From a virus: a stretch of 34,964 nucleotides of DNA. Below the pieces are notes generated by a model, which was not told the DNA's origin, did not search any database, and worked only from the letters and a program-made list of their open reading frames with translations. The stretch covers positions 1 through 34,964 of the IMG/VR virus record IMGVR_UViG_3300031857_000673. One strand, 5' to 3'. Below are positions 2,983 through 34,387 of this stretch, piece by piece (position 1 is the stretch's first letter; the number at the start of each line of letters is the position of its first letter). The position numbers and the translations under genes are program-made.

Positions 2983-3783
2983 TTGAAAGAAAAACAGATA
3001 CTCGATCCTCTATGGATAACTAAGGGCAGTTATCTAGATCCAGAATACTTTAGCTACATACTCTTGGCAGCAAGCCAAAAGTACAGAAAGGATCTTGAAG
3101 AAGGAGACCTTCGCTACTTTTATGAGCTCTTCTTTCATAGCTTGAACCTAAATAACTTGGCGATAGACGGTAGCTTATTTGATTCAAAGCTTCATCCCAT
3201 CTGGCAGAACGAAAGATTGAATGCAATAAAGAAAGAATTACGACAGATCTTTGAGAGAAAGACGGAGGTCGTTGAGATATTTAGAAATGCAAATTACGTC
3301 TTCTTAAACCTGATCCTAGAATACATGGATCAGCAGCTAGCCGCTTTTGACTTAATGGAGATCTTTTATATGAATGAGATGATTCATGAACAACAGGAGA
3401 TATTCATAGTGATGAATGAGGTCGGAAGCAAGCAATACTCGATTTGGTGCGTGAAAGAAGACTTTACTAAGGATTATGGAGTCTCATTTAGAAAAGTAAA
3501 AACGATCGTCCTTGATGAGATCAAGGAAAACGCTCTCAAAGAAAAGTTGAGTGAGATGAATCACCCGACCTTAAATAGAATGAAGGACAAGAAGAATGTC
3601 GTTTTTGCAATAACTGAAGAAGTCGATCAAAAAATTGCGGCAAATGTCGTGAAAGACACAATTTTGCTAAACAAGGGGATTGCTAAGGGAATAGCCTTTG
3701 AGACAAACATCATCGCTGAGCTTCAGGCTCTACTTGTTGTTGAGAACCTGATGCCCTTTACTCTTTCTCAATGGATCGATTAG
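2983..3783 (+). CDS. unknown 266-aa phage protein, isolated on the plus strand
   Basis: An uninterrupted 266-codon frame with ordinary phage codon use. An in-frame TAA lies six bases before the TTG at 2983, and the first in-frame ATG comes only at about residue 115, so TTG is the probable start. There is no good Shine-Dalgarno; an A-rich AAAAAGAG stretch lies upstream. The product is mostly helical and charged, soluble, without signal peptide or transmembrane helix. The N-terminal half (FSYILLAASQKY, FYELFFHSLNLNN, LRQIFERKTEVVEIF) looks like a helical bundle; the C-terminal half is mixed (VVFAITEEVDQKIAANVV). I do not recognise the family. It is the only plus-strand gene inside the minus-strand structural block. 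Its stop codon overlaps the stop of the convergent small gene by three bases (union 3780-3783). Confidence 0.7.
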   Translation: MKEKQILDPLWITKGSYLDPEYFSYILLAASQKYRKDLEEGDLRYFYELFFHSLNLNNLAIDGSLFDSKLHPIWQNERLNAIKKELRQIFERKTEVVEIFRNANYVFLNLILEYMDQQLAAFDLMEIFYMNEMIHEQQEIFIVMNEVGSKQYSIWCVKEDFTKDYGVSFRKVKTIVLDEIKENALKEKLSEMNHPTLNRMKDKKNVVFAITEEVDQKIAANVVKDTILLNKGIAKGIAFETNIIAELQALLVVENLMPFTLSQWID

Positions 3784-4085
3784 ATCGAATCAATCACTGT
3801 GAGTCCAAATGCTTCTAGCTTTTCCTTAGTTAGCGCGTAGGCAACCTCATAAACATTACCAGTTAATGTGAATGCTGAATCATCAGTCTTTCCTACTCTA
3901 GAATAAACCTGCTGACTTGTCACAGTCTTGGTAGGATCAGCCAGTCTAGCCTCCTCATTTAAGTATAAGTTTAAGAATGCATTTATTGTGCCGCTCTTTG
4001 AAACCTTTACTGTTTCGATGTTTACATAGGCATCAGATGTTGTGCCTCCGTCTGTGTAAATTTCACTAGTTATCTTTAGTCCCAT
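3780..4085 (-). CDS. small putative virion protein, 101 aa
   Basis: A 101-aa acidic, beta-rich protein (MGLKITSEIYTDGGTTSDAYVN at the start, FLNLYLNEEARL in the middle) with no signal peptide or membrane segment. I do not recognise the family. It sits 19 bases downstream of the long tail-fibre gene on the same strand. Small proteins in that place are often fibre-tip, chaperone-like or decoration proteins, but this is only positional inference. The ATG at 4085 is preceded by a strongly A-rich leader (ATAAAATAAA directly before it) with no Shine-Dalgarno. The 3' end overlaps the convergent plus-strand gene, so there is no room for a conventional terminator between them. Confidence 0.7.
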   Translation of the reverse strand: MGLKITSEIYTDGGTTSDAYVNIETVKVSKSGTINAFLNLYLNEEARLADPTKTVTSQQVYSRVGKTDDSAFTLTGNVYEVAYALTKEKLEAFGLTVIDSI

Positions 4086-4104
4086 TTTATTTTATTTTTT
4101 ATTA

Positions 4105-7100
4105 TTATGCAATCACGTACGAGAATGTGAACCACTGGGTGCCATCACCGATGCCTATTGCTGAGTCATCTGCCTTTTTTATTTCTACTTGAGTTGCGTT
4201 TTTATATCCTACTTTACAAGCGGTATTTCCAACATTAAATGAAGCTACTCCCCAAGCCTGATTAGGAGCGATCGTTCCAAGAGGAATATTGATTGTTGGA
4301 TTTCCACCGGCAATAGTTTTTCCAGTACAAGTGACAACGTCTCCTACTCTAGTAAATGTATAATCAGAGTTAGCCTCATCATATCTACCGCTTATGAATT
4401 GATTACTGCCACTAAATTGGTTTGGATCTCTAGCATTAAGGTATAGATGAGGATGATCATTGATTGTAAGCTTTCCATCTAATATATTCTCATCAGCGTC
4501 TCTTACCCAAATACCGTATGCTTTGTTCACAGCAGTCGCTCCTGCATAGTCAACATATACTCCATAAACATCGCCGGCTGTATTGTTTCCAGTAAACTTA
4601 AAGTTATATCCCCAAAGGCTAGAATTGGCAGTAACTCCCGGGCCAATTTCTACCCAGTTGGAAAGCACCCATCCATCAAAGGTTGTGGTATCGCCACCAA
4701 TACCAAATTTTTGCCAGTGACCCACAAAGTCTGAATGAAAGGTAGTAGATTCTCCAACGCCAGTCGCTCCTATGAGTTGAGAGGTGACCCATCCCCCATT
4801 GATGTCATTTGTTCCGCTGAGTCTAATTCTATTACAGTTAACTGCTTGTAAATCAACTGAATCTAAATCAGTAGTATCGATTAGGATCTCATCAGCGAGC
4901 GCAACGGTGTCTAACCACTTTCTATTCAATCGTATTTTTGGAGCACCAGTTGGAGAGCTTTGTGTGATTCCTTCCAGCTTAGTTTCAATGATTGTCAATG
5001 GATCAGGAGCACTGGTGAGTACCATATTAGGATCAGAGAATCTTACCTTTATTGGGCCGTCTACCGCTAGTCCCTGACCGCGATCGATGTATACTCCTCC
5101 CTGACCCACGTTTATTGAGTTCCCGACCTCTAATGATTCTCCAACGTATGCGTTTTTGAATACTTTGATCTCATTAGATCTTATCATAGACAGGTCGGCA
5201 TTTGCAGAAACTATTCCGTCAACTTCAAACACAGAAATACCTCCAATCGTTGCAGCATATGAACCTGTTCCGTTTGAGGTGGAAACGTAAATCTTGTTTC
5301 CTACCATCGTCATCTTTCCAGCAGCAGTTATCTCACCTCTAGACTCAATTGCGACAGTAAATGGATTTAGGATGTCAGAAATATCGACTGTTGCAAGCAT
5401 CCCAATTCCGCTCACTTTATTCTCACCTAGCGCATATAAGTAACGATCACTAACTATTATGTCAGTAATATCGATATTTGTGTCCACTTCAAATGAAGAG
5501 ACTAGAGACAAGTTTTGAGTGTTGTTCACATCAATGTTGTATACATAAACATCATTATCGTAAGAGCAGAATAACCAGGTCCCCAGAGCCTTGAGCTGTG
5601 CAGGTTTTTCATTAGCACCACTGGCAACAACAACGGTCCCGCTATTTGAAGCAGGTCGATAAGTTATGTTATAAGGATCATGGATATCAAACTGCTTGAT
5701 TCGAATGCTGTTTGAGCTCTCAGTAAAAGTAGAAACAAACGCTCTTTCTCCAACTATCTCAAGGTCCAAGTAATTATCATCGTTTCTACCATATGATGTG
5801 GGCGAACCGAGACTACATATTACTACAGGATTCGTCGGATCGGAAACATCAATAGCGATTATAGTTGAGTTAAGAGTAGACCATGGAGCGGCAGCCTGTC
5901 TCTTATTGATTACGTAAGCAATTGACCCAACTATCTCAACTCGCTGTAAACTGTTTCCTGGAGTATCAATTGATACCGGTACCATAGAATTTCCATTGGA
6001 GTCGGCCTCAGCTATGATGAAAGTATTATAATTTCGATTGATACCTACACCTGGTGCACTGCCTGGAGTAGAAGGTCTGACTCTAGTTAGATAGATGTAC
6101 TTACCAGCAATCTTTGCGTCAGTCACACTAGTTGCGGGAATGTCTTGAAGTACTCCAGAGATTGTGTGGCCATGGTTATCGAATGCAAGTGGAATAAGAA
6201 GATTTTGCTCAGAGTCAGTAGTAACCGTATTAAGAACAGTAAGCGCTGAGTCTAGTGCTCTAAGTTGGATTGCACCCTGAGAAGTAGTCAAGTTACTTCC
6301 GCCGTATATGTCATTAGGTCCAGCAAAAGTCTGTATTAAGTATTTACCATTGGAGAATATCGAAGTATAATAGCGGTTAGCATTACCTGGATAGCCGACT
6401 CCAAACAGCGCCTTAGAGACAAATTCAGCAGGTGTTGTGTGAATCTGCTCAATGTTGCCAGCAGTCTGTACAAGACGGTCATTAAAGAAGAAACCATTTA
6501 GTCCGCTTGAAACATCAAATAGAGCAAAATCAGCGTTTCCTGCAGAATAAGGCAGAGTCAATTCATTTTCAAGACCCTCCTTAAGACCAAAGATAAGACC
6601 GTTTACTGCAGAAGAAATGCTGATTCCGTCAGGTACGATAGGCGGAACTGCTGACTGTTCAATTAGAGACTCGGCCGATCCTAATCGAATTGTTACCTCA
6701 GACTGAATTGTGCTCAGCCCTTCGTCGTTATACTTTGGAACTACAAATTCAAATCTTCCGTTTTGATCAATAGTTGCGATTGAGGTCGATTCTAATTTAC
6801 TTAAAGAGAATCTTGCAGTATTTAACCAATAGTTAGTACTCGGCAATGGGGTTGATAGGCTAACGTCTTCCTTTAGGAACTTTACCTTTAGATTGTGTCG
6901 AATATCACTCATCTCAACTTGACTGGGACTTACTTCTGTGTTTTCGTAGAGTGATCCCATTTCAAGGTGATATCTTCCTTGAATGACAGCTGCGCCTTCA
7001 CTATGGTTTGAGTAGATGGATAATAGAGAATTGAATAACTCTCCAGGATTTGCTGTAAAATAAAAGTTAGTTAAGCTATTGGAAAGAACGTCCTCATTAA

Positions 7101-16447: not shown

Positions 16448-18550
16448 TTATCTTATTTTGTCCACTCTAAAGGTGAATAGTGTGCTGTCCAAACAGATTA
16501 TGTCAAAAATAGGGGCATTTTGAGAAGGGGTGAAATCAAGATCAGTAAGGACTGATATTAGGACACCATATTCTCCGTTATTGCTCCTATTTAGAGCATC
16601 TGTGTATATCTTAACGTCATAGACGCTAGGTTCTAATTGATCTTCAAAGACTAGTCTTAATATCTGACCTTTTCTCCATTCAAACTTAGTATCGTCTATG
16701 AATATCTGAAGATCTCTTGAAAGAACTATCGGCGTTCCTGAGTTCTGATGAACATAATAGTTCGTGAAAGTAGATAACTCAAGAACATTGTTTGTGAACA
16801 CGTTTCTCAATGAGGTATCAGATATGTTATAGTATTGTGTCGAATTGATTATTCTAGCAATATTTGGAGTTCGACGGTCGACTGATATGCCCAATCCTGG
16901 TCGAATTGCATCTAGATCATATGACACAGTAACATTAGTGTCTCCATTTAAGATAGAATCAAGCTTAGTATTAGTATTGTCTATCATGTTCATGATCACA
17001 CCAGTGTTATCAAATATCGCTTGATTTTCGATTAATGAAGTCTCCAAATCAGTTATCCTAGCTGAAAGTTCAGCTGAATTAGTATCATTGAGCATGAGAT
17101 CTTTAAGATTATTGACCTCCTGTTGTAATGACTCTATCTCTAAGAGCTTGTCGTTAAATCTAGTCTGTAACTGTTTAAACTCAGTCAAAACATCAGTGAA
17201 TAGCTCTAGAGAAAAGGTAGAGTAATCGTTTATTGACTTCTCTATCTTAGTATCCTCAGCCGACGTGTCAAGCTTGAGATTTAACTTAAATGAAAAGGCA
17301 TTACCGTTTGTCTTATTTAGAGGGTCCGGTTTGTACTTAGAAATAGGCGGAATCTCAAATTCTAATCCAGACTGTTGTATTCTATCTAAGAATAGTACAC
17401 CATATAGGTTGGTTCGTATGTCTATTGGAACCCCTGAAGCATCTACGTTATTTGGATCGTATACATCATAGTACACTAAGATCGCATTGAATTCAAAGTC
17501 ACGATTTGCTACGTAATCATTGAATTGTGAAAATACTTTTATCTCAGGATTTTCACTGGCTAGTTTGTAATTAGCTAAATCAAAGTCTAGAGATATTCCG
17601 TCTAATGTGGTTCTAGGATATTCGACGGATGTTATTCCTAACTGTTTTAGAACGTATTGATCAGTCGCAACATCGTATACACCAGTGTTATTGTAATTAT
17701 CTGTGTAGTAGGCGTTATTGATCGTCTTATTGAACCAATTACCTGGAGCGTATGCACCAGTATATGAATTTTTAATTTGAGTAAACACGCTCTGATCGTC
17801 AAGATCGTAAAAGGCCTTTATTGAAAGCCCAAATGGGTGAGTCTCATTGTATCTTCTTCCAGAGAGATACTCAATGTTTAGAGGATCAATTGGAGAATTA
17901 GCAATCGTCATGTTTGGAAAGTAATTGAAATCACTAACTGATTTAAACAGGACGTGAGGCGTTGTACCAACATTCGTTGGCACGTGAATATAGACCTCAG
18001 TGTAAGAGTTGGCAGCCGATGCTAGTGAGTTAACAACGTCAATGTCCCCGATGTATTTTACTACACGGTTATAGGTAGAAGTCGTCTCAGGTTTTTCAAC
18101 GAATCTCTTCTCTGTTCCAAGAACATTTATGTTCTTTTCTAAGGTATTTGCATCTTGAAAGCGAACTGCTCCTAATTCTTTTAACCACTTCCAAAAGACT
18201 CTTTCAGAAACAGTCAGTCTCTCGTTTCTTTTGTATTGTGGCCTACTTAATAATAATGCCTCAAGGTTAAGGGCATAGTTTTGAAAACTCTCAGCTAAGT
18301 TAACGTTATTATCGGGATTTAATCCCTCAATCAGTGGAGTTTCTCCTGGGGCAGCAAACTGTATCTTGTTGTCAGTCGCTAGAGAATTTGGTTCGCCGAT
18401 CTCAGGTATTCTTAATAGGGCAAACTTGGAAAAACGTACAGCACCCTCACTGTTACTTAAGGTGATATTAATATCCTCAAGCGCGCTTTGAAAGTTGTAA
18501 AATATTCCCTTTTTATTCTGAACTGGCTTTATTAAAGGAGTTACTGCCAT
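16448..18550 (-). CDS. putative baseplate-associated structural protein with coiled coil, 700 aa
   Basis: Residues 1-130 are a mixed domain containing VSERVFWKWLKELGAVRF. Residues 180-430 are beta-rich and aspartate/asparagine-rich, ending in LEFEIPPISKYKPDP. Residues about 445-535 form a clear coiled coil (LTEFKQLQTRFNDKLLEIES, QQEVNNLKDLML, ITDLETSLIENQ). Residues 545-700 are a beta domain. There are no catalytic motifs. It sits between the 318-aa and 1192-aa structural genes in one continuous minus-strand unit. A baseplate-wedge role is suggested by the neighbouring gp7-like gene; a gp8- or gp10-type function is possible, but I see no diagnostic similarity. The leader is almost pure A with a few T and G. 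Confidence 0.75.
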   Translation of the reverse strand: MAVTPLIKPVQNKKGIFYNFQSALEDINITLSNSEGAVRFSKFALLRIPEIGEPNSLATDNKIQFAAPGETPLIEGLNPDNNVNLAESFQNYALNLEALLLSRPQYKRNERLTVSERVFWKWLKELGAVRFQDANTLEKNINVLGTEKRFVEKPETTSTYNRVVKYIGDIDVVNSLASAANSYTEVYIHVPTNVGTTPHVLFKSVSDFNYFPNMTIANSPIDPLNIEYLSGRRYNETHPFGLSIKAFYDLDDQSVFTQIKNSYTGAYAPGNWFNKTINNAYYTDNYNNTGVYDVATDQYVLKQLGITSVEYPRTTLDGISLDFDLANYKLASENPEIKVFSQFNDYVANRDFEFNAILVYYDVYDPNNVDASGVPIDIRTNLYGVLFLDRIQQSGLEFEIPPISKYKPDPLNKTNGNAFSFKLNLKLDTSAEDTKIEKSINDYSTFSLELFTDVLTEFKQLQTRFNDKLLEIESLQQEVNNLKDLMLNDTNSAELSARITDLETSLIENQAIFDNTGVIMNMIDNTNTKLDSILNGDTNVTVSYDLDAIRPGLGISVDRRTPNIARIINSTQYYNISDTSLRNVFTNNVLELSTFTNYYVHQNSGTPIVLSRDLQIFIDDTKFEWRKGQILRLVFEDQLEPSVYDVKIYTDALNRSNNGEYGVLISVLTDLDFTPSQNAPIFDIICLDSTLFTFRVDKIR

Positions 18551-18560
18551 TTACTTTTTT

Positions 18561-18572
18561 TTATTTTTATTA
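18561..18572 (-). promoter_or_regulatory. AT-rich TAATAAAAATAA box before the 700-aa gene
   Basis: The minus strand reads TAATAAAAATAA, 10 bases upstream of the ATG at 18550 and overlapping the stop codon of the 318-aa gene. It is similar to boxes before four other structural genes. Late-promoter core or A-rich leader are both possible. Confidence 0.25.
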
Positions 18573-19526
18573 GAATTGCTCCATTCCTACCGCGCCGGTG
18601 ATCAAGAGACGATCGTTTGTTAATTCATCTAGGATATAAAGCAGTGAAGCATTACTTCCATACGCAGATAAAGTGGTATTAGGAATCACTGTACTTGCAG
18701 GATTTACTCCCAATGAGAAGCTTCCATCATGTAAGATGATTGGAGAGCTAGTATTTTGATTCGTTCCAGCCTTTATGTAAACCGGTAAGGATGCACCGTT
18801 TACTGCGGTAAGGATTGATGTGAGGTTAACGTCCTCAACAACATCGACGATGTGAATAGTATACCTAGCATTTGGTGCTGGTGGGTTAGTCGCATCGAAA
18901 TCAATATAGAGCGCGATATTAGTGATTGTTCCAATGATGTTACCAACTCCATCGTATACTGGAGGTATGTTCGGTGAAGTCACCGCTTTCAACTTAACAA
19001 ATATGTTCTGTCTAGAAGTATTAGTTAATGTGATTGTCGCTTTAGCTTCGGAACCATTTGCAGCAAGGTCCAATACAACAGATTCTTTTGATTCAATCAC
19101 GCTTGACTTAAAGTTCACAGTTGAATTAAACTCAGATGGGCCGTTAAATGATGAAGCGTCTGTCACTATCATGTCGTTAACGTTCAACTCATTTAAGCTA
19201 GTTATCGCATTAACATTAAGCAAGTCAACAGTAAAGATAGATTCGTTTAGACCGTTTTTTTCCAATTTTGCGATAATTTGGTTTGGAGTACCGGTCTGAT
19301 AGATGATTCCCTGATCCTGTAGAATGACTGATTGCGTCTTGATAAAATTTATCGCGTTATCAGTTCCTATTGAGAGAGAATTCACGTCTATCTCCAAGTT
19401 ATTGATAAGATCCTCTAATTTAGCCTGTAGAAGTAGGTCATTTGCGTTACTGATGGTTGCGATGTCCGTCACAAAATTAGTAAGCAAGATCTCTTGGATC
19501 GGTAAAGAAACTGGTGTAAATGCCAT
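18570..19526 (-). CDS. fibre-like virion protein, 318 aa
   Basis: The N-terminal 60 residues are helical (IATISNANDLLLQAKLEDLI), likely a short trimerising coiled coil. The middle contains repeated short beta turns (SLNELNVNDMIVTDASSFNG, then EFNSTVNFKSSVI), a pattern seen in phage fibre shafts. Residues about 150-250 form a beta-sandwich-like section (KATITLTNTSRQNIFVKLKA), followed by a tip ending LLITGAVGMEQF. No enzymatic residues are seen. It is 29 bases downstream of the gp7-like gene and 19 bases upstream of the 700-aa gene. It could be a short fibre or a baseplate spoke; the exact role is not determined. Confidence 0.7.
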   Translation of the reverse strand: MAFTPVSLPIQEILLTNFVTDIATISNANDLLLQAKLEDLINNLEIDVNSLSIGTDNAINFIKTQSVILQDQGIIYQTGTPNQIIAKLEKNGLNESIFTVDLLNVNAITSLNELNVNDMIVTDASSFNGPSEFNSTVNFKSSVIESKESVVLDLAANGSEAKATITLTNTSRQNIFVKLKAVTSPNIPPVYDGVGNIIGTITNIALYIDFDATNPPAPNARYTIHIVDVVEDVNLTSILTAVNGASLPVYIKAGTNQNTSSPIILHDGSFSLGVNPASTVIPNTTLSAYGSNASLLYILDELTNDRLLITGAVGMEQF

Positions 19527-19544: not shown

Positions 19545-19555
19545 GTTATTTATTA
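19545..19555 (-). promoter_or_regulatory. candidate late promoter box TAATAAATAAC (318-aa gene)
   Basis: The minus strand reads TAATAAATAAC with its proximal edge 18 bases upstream of the ATG at 19526. The identical 11-mer lies 20 bases upstream of the gp7-like gene (22645-22655). The core AATAAATA differs by one base from the T4 late promoter TATAAATA, and the window encodes a gp55-type late sigma factor. Function is inferred. Confidence 0.4.
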
Positions 19556-22644: not shown

Positions 22645-22655
22645 GTTATTTATTA
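22645..22655 (-). promoter_or_regulatory. candidate late promoter box TAATAAATAAC (gp7-like gene)
   Basis: The minus strand reads TAATAAATAAC, 20 bases upstream of the ATG at 22624, in the 41-base gap after the gp55-like gene. It is the same 11-mer as at 19545-19555. If it is the promoter core, transcription would begin about 12-15 bases before the ATG. Confidence 0.4.
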
Positions 22656-22665
22656 AGATTTAGAG

Positions 22666-23064
22666 CTAGATGCTGTAAACTGAACTTTCTCCATTAGAAT
22701 TGATAGAGATGAAATCTAGGCTCTCGTCAGAGTCTAAGCCAGTTTTACGGTGTATGCTCTTCCACTGTTTTGCGTAACCGTTTTTACAGATCTGAGTAAA
22801 ATAAGCAAAGGCGTTTGGTGTCGCCATTTTGCTCTCGTCAAAGCTCTTCCAATATTTTAGGCAGTCTAATATGGCAGACTGTACGCAGTCTTCCTTGTCT
22901 CGATAGTCCTTAAAGTATAGTCGATCTACTGCTCGGTTTGCGAGTGAGATAAAACAGTTTACTGAGAACTCCGAGAGCTCTCCGTTATTTTTACATTTAA
23001 TGATGTCAGCTGTGAATTCCTTATTATTGATATAGTGGGTGTCCCCTCTTCTTTTTCTTGCCAT
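22666..23064 (-). CDS. 55: late-transcription sigma factor, T4 gp55-like
   Basis: 132 aa; redirects host RNA polymerase to late promoters. Three parts resemble T4 gp55: the N-terminal YINNKEFTADIIKCK (residues 11-25; T4 has YVNNKELLQAIIDWK as I recall it), the core-binding sigma2-like helices around DCVQSAILDCLKYWKSFDESK (59-79), and TPNAFAYFTQICKNGYAKQ (82-100; T4 has NPHAYITQACFNAF). The protein is about 50 residues shorter than T4 gp55. Near its C-terminus ESLDFISI (114-121) resembles the SLDFLYE sliding-clamp-binding end of T4 gp55, which suggests clamp-activated late transcription. It is placed between the resolvase and the baseplate genes it would help to express. No other sigma family fits better. 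Confidence 0.85.
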   Translation of the reverse strand: MARKRRGDTHYINNKEFTADIIKCKNNGELSEFSVNCFISLANRAVDRLYFKDYRDKEDCVQSAILDCLKYWKSFDESKMATPNAFAYFTQICKNGYAKQWKSIHRKTGLDSDESLDFISINSNGESSVYSI

Positions 23065-27531: not shown

Positions 27532-29899
<2,368 letters not shown>

Positions 29900-29923: not shown

Positions 29924-29952
29924 AAAGGAGATAGCTAAACTATCTCCTTTTT
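29924..29952 (+). terminator. rho-independent terminator after groEL
   Basis: AAAGGAGATAG (29924-29934) and CTATCTCCTTT (29940-29950) form a perfect 11-bp stem with a 5-base CTAAA loop, followed by TT; the right arm and tail together give five T's in a row. It lies 25 bases after the groEL stop codon and ends the uvdE-groEL operon. Confidence 0.85.
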
Positions 29953-30000
29953 GTCTAAAACTATTTTAACTACCTGTGTATAAGCTTTAAAAATAAAAAA

Positions 30001-31158
30001 ATGTCAAACCAAGACCCATTTAAAATTACCGGAAAATACAACACTTCCGTAAAACTAACAGACGATGACAAGAAGAGTGGAGTAAAAATATTTTGCCATG
30101 AACCGTATGCTCAAGAGCTATATGATGCAATGGTCAAGTATGAAAAATCAAACTCTAGAATTTCAAAGGACCTTCAAGAAGGAGCCGTCTGTAAAGTAAT
30201 AGCAAAAACCATCTCATACGACGATAAGACTATCTATGCAGAAGATATTTCTTCTAGCATGCCAGTCGCGATTCCATTTAGAGAATTCTCAAAGGACATG
30301 AGCGCTCTTGCAAACGGAGAAGACCGTGAGTTTTTTGTGATGATTTACAAGTCTACAAAGTTTGGTGAAAACTTCGGGTCAGAGAAGAAAGCCCTTTCAA
30401 TATCCTATAAGCAAGAGCTATTTGATCACTTGAATGAGGATCAGTGGTTTGACGTTACAATCACAAAGCTAATTAAAGGAGGATACCTTGCTCTCTACAA
30501 GAAAGAGATCGAATGTTTTATTCCAGGTTCACACGCAGCAGCCAATATCATTCATAACTTTAATGACATGCTGAATAAGACACTGACTGTCATGGTAGAT
30601 AACTATGATCAAGCAAATGACCTATTCATCCTTTCATACAAGAAGTACGTCACTCAATCGATGCCTACTATGATTGAGAATCTAGAGTTCAATAGAGAAT
30701 ATACTGGTGTACTAACCAGTAAACCTTATGACTTTGGAGTCTTTGTTGAGATTGACGGTTACTTCACAGGTCTTATACATCAGTCTGAATTTGAAGACTA
30801 TGAGATCACTAAGAGAACCTTGAAAACGGGAGACACTCTTCCTGTTTACGTTAAAGATATCACTACAAAAGGTTCGCAGTTTAGAATCGTTCTTACTCTT
30901 AAGTCTGACAACGTTAATTCTGAAAAATTAGCTTGGCAGAACCTAAAAGAGAAGACTCAAAATAAGTGTTTCCCATACGACGTCAATTCTAAAAAGAATT
31001 CCATTTCTATTGAGATTGACGGTGAAAACTTTGAAGTGTCTCTAAAGCGTAGAGACTTGGACAAGAACCTAAGTCGATACCCATTCGTTAAGGTTTCTAA
31101 GGTAGATTTGATCAATAAGAGCCTAAAATTTGAGTTCGTTGAAGAATCTTCAAATTAA
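30001..31158 (+). CDS. S1-domain RNA-binding protein (ribosomal protein bS1-like)
   Basis: 385 aa with three S1/OB-fold repeats. The first, about residues 57-136, is degenerate. The second, about 147-215, contains WFDVTITKLIKGGYLALYK and ECFIPGSHA. The third, about 230-300, is the most canonical: REYTGVLTSKPYDFGVFVEI followed by GLIHQSEF. A C-terminal region of 80 residues is not recognised. Bacterial bS1 has four to six repeats and binds A/U-rich leaders to bring mRNA to the ribosome; phage homologues are known in metagenomic viruses. Here it has its own leader of nearly pure A (aaaaataaaaaaATG) and lies between the groEL terminator and the RNR genes. Roles in translation, RNA protection or RNA polymerase regulation are all possible. 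Confidence 0.85.
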   Translation: MSNQDPFKITGKYNTSVKLTDDDKKSGVKIFCHEPYAQELYDAMVKYEKSNSRISKDLQEGAVCKVIAKTISYDDKTIYAEDISSSMPVAIPFREFSKDMSALANGEDREFFVMIYKSTKFGENFGSEKKALSISYKQELFDHLNEDQWFDVTITKLIKGGYLALYKKEIECFIPGSHAAANIIHNFNDMLNKTLTVMVDNYDQANDLFILSYKKYVTQSMPTMIENLEFNREYTGVLTSKPYDFGVFVEIDGYFTGLIHQSEFEDYEITKRTLKTGDTLPVYVKDITTKGSQFRIVLTLKSDNVNSEKLAWQNLKEKTQNKCFPYDVNSKKNSISIEIDGENFEVSLKRRDLDKNLSRYPFVKVSKVDLINKSLKFEFVEESSN

Positions 31159-31307
31159 TTTTACAAGGATGGCTCTCATCAATTCTTGACCTGATAAATA
31201 AATTAGAATCTTAAACGATTTAATCTGGATTAAGCATACAAATAAAAAAATCTAACAATTAGCGATGCTGATAGTATAGCCTCGCTGTCTAAAAAAACAA
31301 GAAGAAA
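31159..31307 (+). promoter_or_regulatory. nrd upstream region with AT box and imperfect hairpin
   Basis: This 149-bp gap holds GATAAATAA at 31193-31201 and an imperfect hairpin at 31261-31286 (AGCGA-t-GCT paired with AGC-c-TCGCT around an 8-base loop). An A-rich, AAGAAG-containing leader follows, directly before the nrdB ATG. No NrdR box pair or known riboswitch was recognised. It probably contains the nrd promoter, but I cannot fix the start point. Confidence 0.4.
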
Positions 31308-32315
31308 ATGGCAAACTCACTCTTTACTGAACGCGTAGAATACAAACCATTCGAATACCCTATCTATTACACTGAAGGCTGGTTAAAGCAAGCTCAAGCC
31401 TTTTGGCTTCACACTGAGATCTCAATGCAGGGAGACATTAAGGACTGGAATGAGCACTTGAGTAAAGCTGAAAAGAATCTAGTAGGTAATATCCTTTTGG
31501 GGTTTGCTCAGACTGAGTGTGCAGTCTCAGACTATTGGACTGGAATGGTATCTAAGTGGTTTCCTAAGCATGAAATAAAGCAGATGGCCATGATCTTCGG
31601 TTCTCAAGAAACCATACACGCGACCGCTTATTCATATTTGAATGAATCACTAGGTTTGGAAGATTTTAAAGCATTTTTACATGAGCCAGCAATCGCTCAA
31701 AAATTTGAATACTTACTAGAGACGAATTACGATTACTCATACACTGATCTTGCTGAATCATCAGATGCCCGTAGAGACGTTGCTCGCTCTCTTGCTATAT
31801 TTTCCGCATTTGCTGAAGGAGTATCCCTCTACTCATCCTTTGCTGTTCTCTATTCTTTTCAAATGCGTAATCTCTTAAAAGGAATAGGCCAGCAAATGAA
31901 ATGGTCAGTTCGCGATGAGTCTTTACACTCTAAGATGGGATGTCAATTATTTAGACACATGTGCGAAGAATATCCAGAACTAAAAGAAGCGGTTCGATCT
32001 CAAGTTGAAGAGGCCGCTGCTATCATGGTAGAGATGGAGTTGACATTTATCGATAAGATGTTTGAGATGGGAGATCTTGAGAACCTAAAATCCAACGATC
32101 TTAAGGAATTCATCAAGAAGAGAGCTAATGAGAAACTTAATGAGTTAGGTTATGAGTCAATATTTAATTATGACGAATATCTAGCTTCTGAACTTGACTG
32201 GTTTTATCATCTTACTGGAGGACACACTCACACAGATTTCTTTGCGATCCGACCTACTGATTATGCAAAGGCTGGCGAAAACGAAGATTGGGACGAAGAC
32301 TCACTTTTTAGTTAA
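31308..32315 (+). CDS. nrdB: class Ia ribonucleotide reductase small subunit (R2)
   Basis: 335 aa; generates the tyrosyl radical for reduction of ribonucleotides. All dimetal ligands are visible: D43 (FWLHTEISMQGD), E101 and H104 (GSQETIHATAY), E170 (FSAFAEGVSLYSSF), E204 and H207 (VRDESLHSKMG). The radical tyrosine is kept at Y108, exactly four residues after the His, as in E. coli Y122, so this is not a tyrosine-less class Ic enzyme. The acidic C-terminus (ENEDWDEDSLFS) is probably the peptide that docks onto NrdA. No ATP-cone is attached. The stop TAA overlaps the next small ORF's ATG (TAATG). Confidence 0.96.
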   Translation: MANSLFTERVEYKPFEYPIYYTEGWLKQAQAFWLHTEISMQGDIKDWNEHLSKAEKNLVGNILLGFAQTECAVSDYWTGMVSKWFPKHEIKQMAMIFGSQETIHATAYSYLNESLGLEDFKAFLHEPAIAQKFEYLLETNYDYSYTDLAESSDARRDVARSLAIFSAFAEGVSLYSSFAVLYSFQMRNLLKGIGQQMKWSVRDESLHSKMGCQLFRHMCEEYPELKEAVRSQVEEAAAIMVEMELTFIDKMFEMGDLENLKSNDLKEFIKKRANEKLNELGYESIFNYDEYLASELDWFYHLTGGHTHTDFFAIRPTDYAKAGENEDWDEDSLFS

Positions 32316-32524: not shown

Positions 32525-32579
32525 CTTTAATCCGGATCACGCTTGGGAAAGAGTAGAAGAAGAATCAAATAAACAATAA
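32433..32579 (+). CDS. small ORF immediately upstream of nrdA, 48 aa
   Basis: This frame starts with ATG at 32433, preceded by AAGAGAG with a 4-base gap, one of the few Shine-Dalgarno-like sequences here. It ends with TAA two bases before the nrdA ATG. The product begins MEELEKEIEVCLGVG and ends NPDHAWERVEEESNKQ: acidic, with one cysteine. It overlaps the preceding ORF by 92 bases in a different frame. The tight spacing to nrdA suggests a genuine coupled gene. Function unknown. Confidence 0.55.
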   Translation: MEELEKEIEVCLGVGTNQIFPEIIKIKVPINFNPDHAWERVEEESNKQ

Positions 32580-32581
32580 AA

Positions 32582-34387
32582 ATGGAAGAGACTGAAATAA
32601 ATCACGGAGCAGAACATGGATGGGAAGTCGGAGTTCATTTTCCAGTATGGGCAAACACTGAAGTCTATGTCAAAACTGTATCTAAAGGCTACTTATTAGA
32701 GGGTGAAACACCAAAGGACTCTTATTGGAGAGTGGCAAGCGCAGTAGCTAAAAGACTTAAACGACCTGAACTTGCTTCTAAGTTCTTTGATTATATGTGG
32801 CGCGGCTGGCTAAACTTAGCTACTCCAGTTTTTTCAAACACTGGAACTGAAAGAGGTTTACCTATTTCATGTTTTGGAATCGACGTTGCCGATTCTATCG
32901 CAGACATTGGAGGCAAAAACCTAGAGCTAATGCTCCTTGCTAAGCACGGCGGAGGAGTCGGAATTGGAATCAATCAAGTTCGACCTGCAGGTTCAACTAT
33001 ATCTCAAAACGGAACTTCTGATGGAGTCGTTCCTTTTTGTAAGATCTATGATTCATCAGTCTTGGCTACCAATCAAGGAAATGTTCGTAGGGGAGCAGCG
33101 TCAGTAAACATAGACATTGAGCATGGAGACTTTTGGGACTGGCTAGAGATCAGGGAGCCTAAAGGAGAGATCAATCGCCAGTGTCTAAACTTACACCAAT
33201 GTGTAGTAGTCTCAGACGATTTCATGCAAAAACTAGAGCATGGCGACAAGGAAGCGCGTCGACGTTGGACTGCTGTGATCAGAAAAAGAAAGGCCACTGG
33301 CGAACCTTACATCATGTACAAAGGAAACGTTAATCGTCAAAGTCCAGAAGCATACAAAAAGAACGGTCTTAAAGTGTATATGACCAATATTTGTTCGGAG
33401 ATCACCTTGCATACTGATGAGAACCATTCATTCGTTTGCTGTCTTTCTTCGCTAAACCTTGCAAAATATGAGGAGTGGAAGGATACTGACTTGATCTATA
33501 CTGCTACTTGGTTTTTGGATGGAGTCCTAGAAGAGTTTATTCATCGTTCTAAATACATGAGAGGTTTTGAAAACTCAGTACGTTCAGCAGAAAAGGGTAG
33601 AGCTTTAGGTTTGGGAGTATTGGGCTGGCACACTTATTTACAAAACAAAAATATTCCATTCGATTCCCTAACTGCTCAGTTTGAGACTCGAAAGATATTC
33701 TCACAACTTAAGATTGAGAGCGAGAGAGCGAGTCGAGACCTTGCTAAAGAGTTCGGCGAGCCGTTATGGTGTGTTGGTACTGGAATGAGAAACTCTCACC
33801 TTAGAGCCATTGCTCCTACTGTTTCTAACTCTAAATTAGCAGGAAATGTTTCAGCTGGAATTGAGCCATGGGCAGCAAACGTATTCACTGAACAGACAGC
33901 TAAAGGTACATTCATTCGTAAAAATCCTTCGCTAGAGAAAGTACTAGACAAGATCGGTCATAATACTAAAGAGGTTTGGGATCAGATATTAGCAGACGGT
34001 GGATCAGTTCAAGGACTCGATTTTATGGATAACTATCGAGTAAAATTAGGAGAAGTTAGCTTTCCTATAACTTTAACTAAGTGGTCAAAGCTTCCTGATG
34101 TAGAGCAAGCCAATTATCTCCCTCTTAAGGAGGTTTACTTGACCTTCAAGGAGATAAATCAGTTAGAATTAGTAAGACAGGCTGGAGTTCGTCAACAGTA
34201 CATCGATCAAGCAGTCTCTCTAAACCTGGCCTTTCCTAGTGAAGCTGAACCTAAGTTTATCAATCAAGTTCACCTAGAAGCCTATAATGCTGGAATCAAG
34301 ACTTTATATTACATGAGAACTGAGTCTGTTTTAAGAGGAGACATCGCGACTAGGGCAATGACAGATTGCCTAGCATGCGACGGATAA
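32582..34387 (+). CDS. nrdA: class I ribonucleotide reductase large subunit (R1), ATP-cone absent
   Basis: 601 aa. The active site is complete: C97 (LPISCFGI), the thiyl-radical C271 with N269 and E273 (TNICSEI), C286 (FVCCLSSLNLA) as partner of C97, the radical-transfer tyrosines Y576 and Y577 (KTLYYMRT), and the C-terminal redox pair C596-x2-C599 (DCLACDG). The sequence begins almost directly with the helical domain; the roughly 90-residue N-terminal ATP-cone that lets dATP shut off most class Ia enzymes is absent, as in NrdE. The enzyme is therefore probably insensitive to dATP feedback. With NrdB it makes deoxynucleotides for phage DNA. No intein or intron was seen. Confidence 0.96.
   Translation: MEETEINHGAEHGWEVGVHFPVWANTEVYVKTVSKGYLLEGETPKDSYWRVASAVAKRLKRPELASKFFDYMWRGWLNLATPVFSNTGTERGLPISCFGIDVADSIADIGGKNLELMLLAKHGGGVGIGINQVRPAGSTISQNGTSDGVVPFCKIYDSSVLATNQGNVRRGAASVNIDIEHGDFWDWLEIREPKGEINRQCLNLHQCVVVSDDFMQKLEHGDKEARRRWTAVIRKRKATGEPYIMYKGNVNRQSPEAYKKNGLKVYMTNICSEITLHTDENHSFVCCLSSLNLAKYEEWKDTDLIYTATWFLDGVLEEFIHRSKYMRGFENSVRSAEKGRALGLGVLGWHTYLQNKNIPFDSLTAQFETRKIFSQLKIESERASRDLAKEFGEPLWCVGTGMRNSHLRAIAPTVSNSKLAGNVSAGIEPWAANVFTEQTAKGTFIRKNPSLEKVLDKIGHNTKEVWDQILADGGSVQGLDFMDNYRVKLGEVSFPITLTKWSKLPDVEQANYLPLKEVYLTFKEINQLELVRQAGVRQQYIDQAVSLNLAFPSEAEPKFINQVHLEAYNAGIKTLYYMRTESVLRGDIATRAMTDCLACDG

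Follow-up and report, generated by a model that had tools for sequence, protein, structure and literature searches.

A bS1-like S1-domain protein encoded between GroEL and ribonucleotide reductase in a lineage of phages probably infecting Bacteroidota

The stretch of viral DNA analyzed here in full (hereafter the window) comprises 34,964 bases with a GC content of 39%, and encodes tail and baseplate proteins, a RuvC-like resolvase, UvdE, exonucleases, a gp55-like sigma factor, GroEL, an S1-domain protein and a class I ribonucleotide reductase (table 1). A search of the window against Rfam gave zero matches. Because the large structural protein of the window matches phages Flavobacterium MaF61, Tenacibaculum pT24, Chryseobacterium MA9V, PAU and Lak Prevotella, the host most likely belongs to the Bacteroidota, the structural-protein similarity reaching only to the level of phylum and not to a genus.

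Table 1. Features of the S1 locus and of the rest of the window, in window coordinates.
Feature	Position	Strand	Basis or remark
Leader of gene 3780-4085	4086..4115	-	A-rich, SD-less
Leader of gene 16448-18550	18551..18580	-	A-rich, SD-less
RATAAATAAYTAAAA motif copies	2909-2916, 19546-19553, 22646-22653	-	Many genes in L065-L073 also
T4 gp55-like late sigma factor	22666..23064	-	PHROG 234, E 1.5e-18
GroEL	28292..29899	+	PHROG 5725, E 1e-151; conserved synteny, upstream neighbor of the S1 gene
Terminator-like hairpin and T run between GroEL and S1	29924..29952	+	Sequence; kept in eight relatives
Promoter-like stretch (AAAACTAT...TGTATAAG) and A-rich S1 leader	29953..30000	+	Putative promoter
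bS1-like S1-domain protein, 385 aa, ATG at 30001	30001..31158	+	Colinear with bS1 D1-D3; top fold-search matches are bS1 chains
N-terminal motif YAQELYD (36-42) and helix, residues 36-50, at the place of the bS1 uS2-anchoring helix	30106..30150	+	Conservation, model
D1, OB fold, residues ~63-127	30187..30381	+	Profile alignment, structure model
D2, residues ~149-212, KGGY...ECFIPGS hallmark	30445..30636	+	K159/Y162/F173 correspond to E. coli K117/F120/F130
D3, canonical S1 RNA-binding domain, residues ~233-299	30697..30897	+	PF00575; conserved DFGVFVE..YTGL.H
Degenerate fourth OB-like domain (D4), residues ~323-380	30967..31140	+	Five strands and one helix in two models
NrdB	31308..32315	+	Conserved neighbor downstream of the S1 gene
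NrdA leader	32552..32581	+	A-rich, SD-less
NrdA	32582..34387	+	A-rich leader

The open reading frame that a preliminary description had assigned to an S1 protein at 30001-31158 is present, and over residues ~50-305 its product is colinear with D1-D2-D3 of bS1 by both sequence and predicted fold, a better agreement than with PNPase or other S1 proteins. In a phmmer search of the PDB, residues 71-302 align colinearly with bS1 (E. coli bS1, E = 7.7e-13; PNPase, 9.3e-6), and in a profile alignment of 37 phage homologues with a Bacteroidota bS1 set, residues 41-315 pair with D1-D3 at a probability of 97% and an identity of 23%; this set was fetched with a consensus-like query, and only the retrieved genomic proteins entered later analyses. 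The expectation that the repeats would be of the bS1 and not of the RNA-degradation type is borne out by the E values (in round figures 8e-13 for bS1 chains and 9e-6 for PNPase). NCBIfam bS1 equivalog models are the best match for all 17 homologues scanned (best E about 1e-25) and score above the CvfD/GSP13 and PNPase models. The curated rpsA cut-offs are missed by far (TIGR00717, 60 vs 577 bits; NF005208, 77.6 vs 368; NF000907, 78.6 vs 624), and we therefore file the protein as bS1-like and not as a bona fide bS1. Matches to PNPase, RNase R, NusA, CvfD and GSP13 are weaker and, in sequence, confined to D3, and a catalytic domain is absent.

The AlphaFold2 model of the protein (mean pLDDT 80.7, pTM 0.46) has good domains whose mutual placement is uncertain. 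Foldseek ranks bS1 chains top; against E. coli bS1 2-261 the model gives Z 11.2 and rmsd 6.5 over 243 residues, and against 3-174 it gives Z 12.3 and rmsd 4.2 over 163 residues. Model residues 39-217 align with E. coli bS1 1-174. The three repeats originally reported stand as three colinear S1 domains recognizable by sequence, but the count leaves out a probable degenerate fourth, and Pfam PF00575, which by itself undercounts the repeats, detects one only (residues 244-288, E = 1.1e-8). The predicted structure contains four OB-like units, of which the last, taken alone, gives weak matches to D4 of bS1 (Z 4.8 with 4nnh of M. tuberculosis, Z 3.7 with 9guv of E. coli); a Foldseek search with this domain alone returned nothing significant. 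Despite these weak matches, the 462-kb phage LR756500 has at the aligned position an S1 domain that Pfam recognizes, and on this ground we take it as probable that the modeled protein consists of four S1-type domains with a degenerate one at the end. The 385-aa chain ends after this domain, and D5-D6 are absent.

Positions that in E. coli bS1 touch mRNA or the ribosome are unevenly kept in the phage proteins. E. coli bS1 forms an mRNA pocket in D2 from K117, F120 and F130 (PMC10123108), and the equivalent residues are near-invariant among the 37 phage homologues (K159 in 35, Y162 in 36 with F in the other one, F173 in all 37). Contact with uS2 is made in E. coli by F5 and F9 of the N-terminal bS1 helix and by the D1 rim (PMC4288201, PMC10123108). 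At the place of this helix, the phage homologues conserve the YAQELYD motif (Y36 in 35, A37, Q38 and Y41 each in 36 of 37), and a predicted helix at residues 37-50 carries the conserved Y41 and an aromatic residue at 47, although its register to F5 and F9, which stack on Phe32 of uS2, is not alignable. From the model, this helix may anchor the protein to uS2. K43, through which E. coli bS1 touches the zinc pocket of uS2, is not conserved (the window protein has S86; 11 of the 37 homologues have K, and most have G), which counts against docking at the bS1 site; in E. coli bS1 itself, K43E has a minor effect only (PMC4288201). Ribosome binding is a property that we infer, given that F5 and F9 cannot be aligned in register and that K43 is not kept. 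The S1 gene has a dN/dS of 0.04-0.11, similar to GroEL and NrdB and indicative of strong purifying selection. The most diverged relatives, L055 (L055:9908-10978) and L056, are without the N-terminal YAQELY segment.

Protein and profile searches recovered 57 viral contigs with S1, and a GroEL search added 19 more. Among 80 GroEL loci, S1 lies downstream in 56; three lineage loci end too early after GroEL, and the other 21 are without the lineage gene order. S1 is thus found downstream of GroEL in 56/56 lineage loci having enough downstream sequence, within the conserved order exo-PDDEXK-GroEL-(large protein)-S1-NrdB-NrdA. It is a core gene of the lineage and no stray acquisition, and the large viruses of this lineage probably infect Bacteroidota. 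A tblastn search of 84,980 bacterial and archaeal species genomes with two conserved S1 peptides, from which diverged copies would escape, found no relative and therefore gives no evidence of recent exchange with hosts. The ribosomal protein bS21 is co-encoded in at least 9 of the 29 S1-bearing records tested, a lower bound given that the records are mostly fragments.

Several further features of the relatives were observed. S1 and bS21 occur on one contig in L060-L064 and in the 253-kb, 142-kb and 119-kb records behind L260, L267 and L269; a bS21 search of L253 (~271 kb) gave no match. By PHROGs, the bS21 gene of a 176-kb relative is not placed beside capsid genes, and no tRNAs were found in that genome. 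Three contigs of ~271 kb from different samples (L253, L254, L255) carry S1 at the same place, which suggests that ~271 kb is the genome size of one branch. The gap between GroEL and S1 holds, in most relatives, a protein of 1,180-1,513 aa with coiled-coil-like stretches and a hydrophobic segment (for example L033:5378-9919, L043:5735-9886, L050:5775-9887 and L055:6269-9814), which is absent there in the clade of the window and found no match in Pfam and PHROG searches.

At 29924-30000 of the window, a promoter-like stretch comes after the conserved terminator-like hairpin, which suggests that S1 is transcribed separately from GroEL. A different signal precedes many other genes. In the window and the 176-kb relative together, ATAAATAA lies within 100 nt of the ATG in 46 of 207 genes, compared with 6.2 expected by shuffling, and 38 copies sit at 20-29 nt, as RATAAATAAYTAAAA; S1-less Bacteroidota phages have no such excess (11 vs 8.9). 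This motif looks like a T4 late promoter and fits the presence of the gp55-like sigma gene, pointing to a putative late promoter, in which case many late mRNAs would have leaders of about 10-20 nt only. The S1 gene is without a well-placed copy of RATAAATAAYTAAAA; it comes with a terminator of its own and with another type of promoter-like stretch.

The preliminary description had also drawn attention to the leaders, and had proposed calculating base frequencies from -20 to -1. This calculation gives 58% A and 9% G for 20 window genes, compared with 33% A in the coding-strand background and 30% A upstream of in-frame internal ATGs, and 51% A for 167 genes of the 176-kb relative. Leaders before 4085, 18550, 30001 and 32582 are A-rich as described, but the phrase “nearly pure A” overstates some of them, in which A is accompanied by T and a few G. 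The reported lack of Shine-Dalgarno (SD) sequences holds, with SD-like motifs in 0/20 window leaders (shuffled 4.5%) and 6.0% vs 3.9% shuffled in the 176-kb relative; a Proteobacteria-like SD signal is absent, further relatives are likewise SD-less, and the T4 control gives 49% vs 19% shuffled. These statistics derive from a simple longest-ORF, first-ATG caller by which some starts are mis-set. Leader A stays high in genes without the promoter-like motif (50%) and in genes tightly coupled to the upstream gene (54%), and because of the latter, A-richness cannot be due to promoter sequence alone.

The idea that A-rich leaders and S1 form a phage-specific pair fails against phages without S1. Whole genomes of the cultured phages MaF61, pT24, MA9V-2, PAU and immuto gave no match in an S1 search. 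This control consists of Flavobacterium, Tenacibaculum and Chryseobacterium phages plus PAU (recorded host Sphingomonas), Bacteroidota hosts being stated for four of the five. Their leaders are equally A-rich and SD-less (47-53% A, 0-5% SD), and dividing leader A by coding A gives overlapping ranges, 1.24-1.75 for phages that have S1 and 1.33-1.53 for those that do not. Bacteroidota mRNAs are themselves without SD and use A at -3, -6, -12 and -13 (PMC6847099, PMC9976891), the contact at -12 to -15 having been assigned to D4 of bS1 (Baez et al.). Our host baseline is the published Flavobacterium johnsoniae data, as random 20-kb samples from 20 phylum genomes (GTDB), some of which show SD-like signals, are too small and too GC-diverse. 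Since S1-less phages and Bacteroidota hosts have such leaders, A-rich leaders are the ordinary host start signal, and A-richness cannot by itself single out phage mRNAs.

What the protein does is best read, in our judgment, as exchange or competition with host bS1, given the conserved anchor-side domains and mRNA pocket, the co-occurrence of bS21, and the precedent of phage-encoded ribosomal proteins. A shortened bS1 paralogue of this kind, for which ribosome binding is inferred, would occupy or compete for the bS1 site on the 30S subunit and alter initiation, a reading that we hold with about even confidence for and against. The N-terminal helix and D1 would dock the protein at the bS1 site of the host 30S, on the uS2 side, and D2 and D3 would be placed at the mRNA exit channel. 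By replacing or competing with host bS1 in infection, the protein could then change which mRNAs initiate, or with what efficiency. In vitro, F. johnsoniae bS1 roughly doubles initiation on one mRNA that has no SD (PMC9976891), bS21 clamps bS1 in E. coli (PMC10123108), and a Pelagibacter phage bS21 enters E. coli ribosomes, according to work cited in PMC9976891. In part of the lineage, the phage S1 might act together with the phage-encoded bS21. Cultured relatives with the common structural gene do without S1, which counts against this reading, as do the scores far short of the curated bS1 cut-offs.

S1 and OB folds are widespread among non-ribosomal RNA-binding proteins, which likewise counts against exchange with bS1, and the protein could instead work off the ribosome by coating or remodeling phage mRNA, as RNase protection, as an RNA chaperone or as a cofactor of a phage nuclease or polymerase. 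D3 is the best-conserved canonical RNA-binding repeat, the neighboring genes encode nucleases, GroEL and ribonucleotide reductase and include no translation genes, and host bS1 has extraribosomal uses in T4 (RegB), Q-beta (replicase) and lambda (PMC13157829). We nevertheless find such a role doubtful, because the ribosome-facing half (N-terminal helix, D1, D2), needless for a pure RNA binder, is kept and conserved, and because bS1 models outscore those of CvfD/GSP13 and PNPase. A bolder reading, which we consider unlikely, is that the phage's own bS1-like protein, with bS21 in some members, rebuilds the mRNA exit site into a phage-specific initiation platform on the SD-ignoring 30S; such a platform would select phage mRNAs by a feature other than A, for example through very short late-promoter leaders, the N-terminal motif or D4.

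Retention of the anchor-side domains, absence of D5-D6 and the A-rich phage leaders would also suit a host shut-off decoy. Such a decoy would fill the bS1 site and, having neither D5-D6 nor a functional D4, would stop host initiation that depends on bS1, with phage mRNAs escaping because of unstructured leaders. Strong conservation of D3 and of the D2 mRNA pocket is unexpected in a mere plug, and with host leaders of the same type the escape is not obvious, which makes a decoy distinctly unlikely. Least probable of all is the version in the preliminary description, according to which the protein would recognize leaders rich in A and in this way steer ribosomes to phage mRNAs. In its favor, binding of A/U-rich RNA by S1 domains is established, leaders in the phage have much A and no SD, and SD motifs are rare in rpS1-bearing huge phages (PMC7162821). 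However, the same leaders occur in S1-less Bacteroidota phages, host mRNAs are A-rich (PMC6847099), so that a preference for A-rich leaders would favor them equally, and the phage protein has a degenerate version of D4, to which the contact near -12 to -15 is assigned.

Compared with bacterial bS1 (rpsA), the phage protein has the same colinear D1-D2-D3, the KGG(F/Y)...F(L/I)PGS signature in D2, a helix before D1 and OB folds, but differs in having no D5-D6, a degenerate D4, an identity of only about 20-25%, its own YAQELY motif and no K43 contact. It is homologous to the S1 protein of Lak Prevotella megaphages over residues 3-299 (28% identity, E = 1e-17), and the two have in common the YAQELY motif and SD-poor genomes. 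Relative to Lak and the rpS1 of huge phages, the present lineage comprises smaller phages (contigs to 271 kb) with the standard code, a fixed GroEL-S1-NrdB-NrdA context and a degenerate D4. Phage rpS1 was reported in 2020, together with the observation that such phages rarely have SD and a proposed role in initiation (Al-Shayeb et al. 2020; PMC7162821), and the same protein is already in databases: A0A6J5NIG6 (BFVD, uncultured Caudovirales phage), automatically annotated as “30S ribosomal protein S1”, is 75% identical and of equal length. The bS1 of the jumbo cyanophage PhiMa05, reported in 2026 and thought to replace the host protein (PMC13157829), is also phage-encoded but differs in its cyanobacterial host and in belonging to a set of six ribosomal proteins. 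The bS21 of freshwater Bacteroidetes phages (Chen et al. 2022; Mizuno et al. 2019) is likewise a phage-encoded paralogue of a 30S initiation-site protein, though a different one; Chen et al. (2022; PMC9723584) describe bS21 phages of freshwater Bacteroidetes with no mention of S1 domains or ribosomal protein S1. What is new here is the architecture (putative anchor helix, D1-D3, degenerate D4), the lineage-wide fixed position, the co-occurrence with bS21, and the control in which A-rich leaders occur irrespective of S1.

How start codons are selected in Bacteroidota, where SD pairing plays no part, has yet to be explained, and bS1 is the factor most often suspected. A phage bS1 that is shortened by nature and under strong selection could be used to probe which of the bS1 domains count on ribosomes blind to SD and, sometimes accompanied by a phage bS21, to test ribosomal-protein swapping as a means of translation takeover.

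The interval between S1 and nrdB also contains a hairpin, which we do not put forward as a structured RNA, its covariation being weak (one pair with two-sided change among 14 sequences). The same intergenic region (31159-31307) is conserved in relatives, with RATAAATAA about 40 nt past the S1 stop and TTAACAATTAGC..GCTGATAGTATAGC..GCTGTCTAAAAAAA before nrdB.
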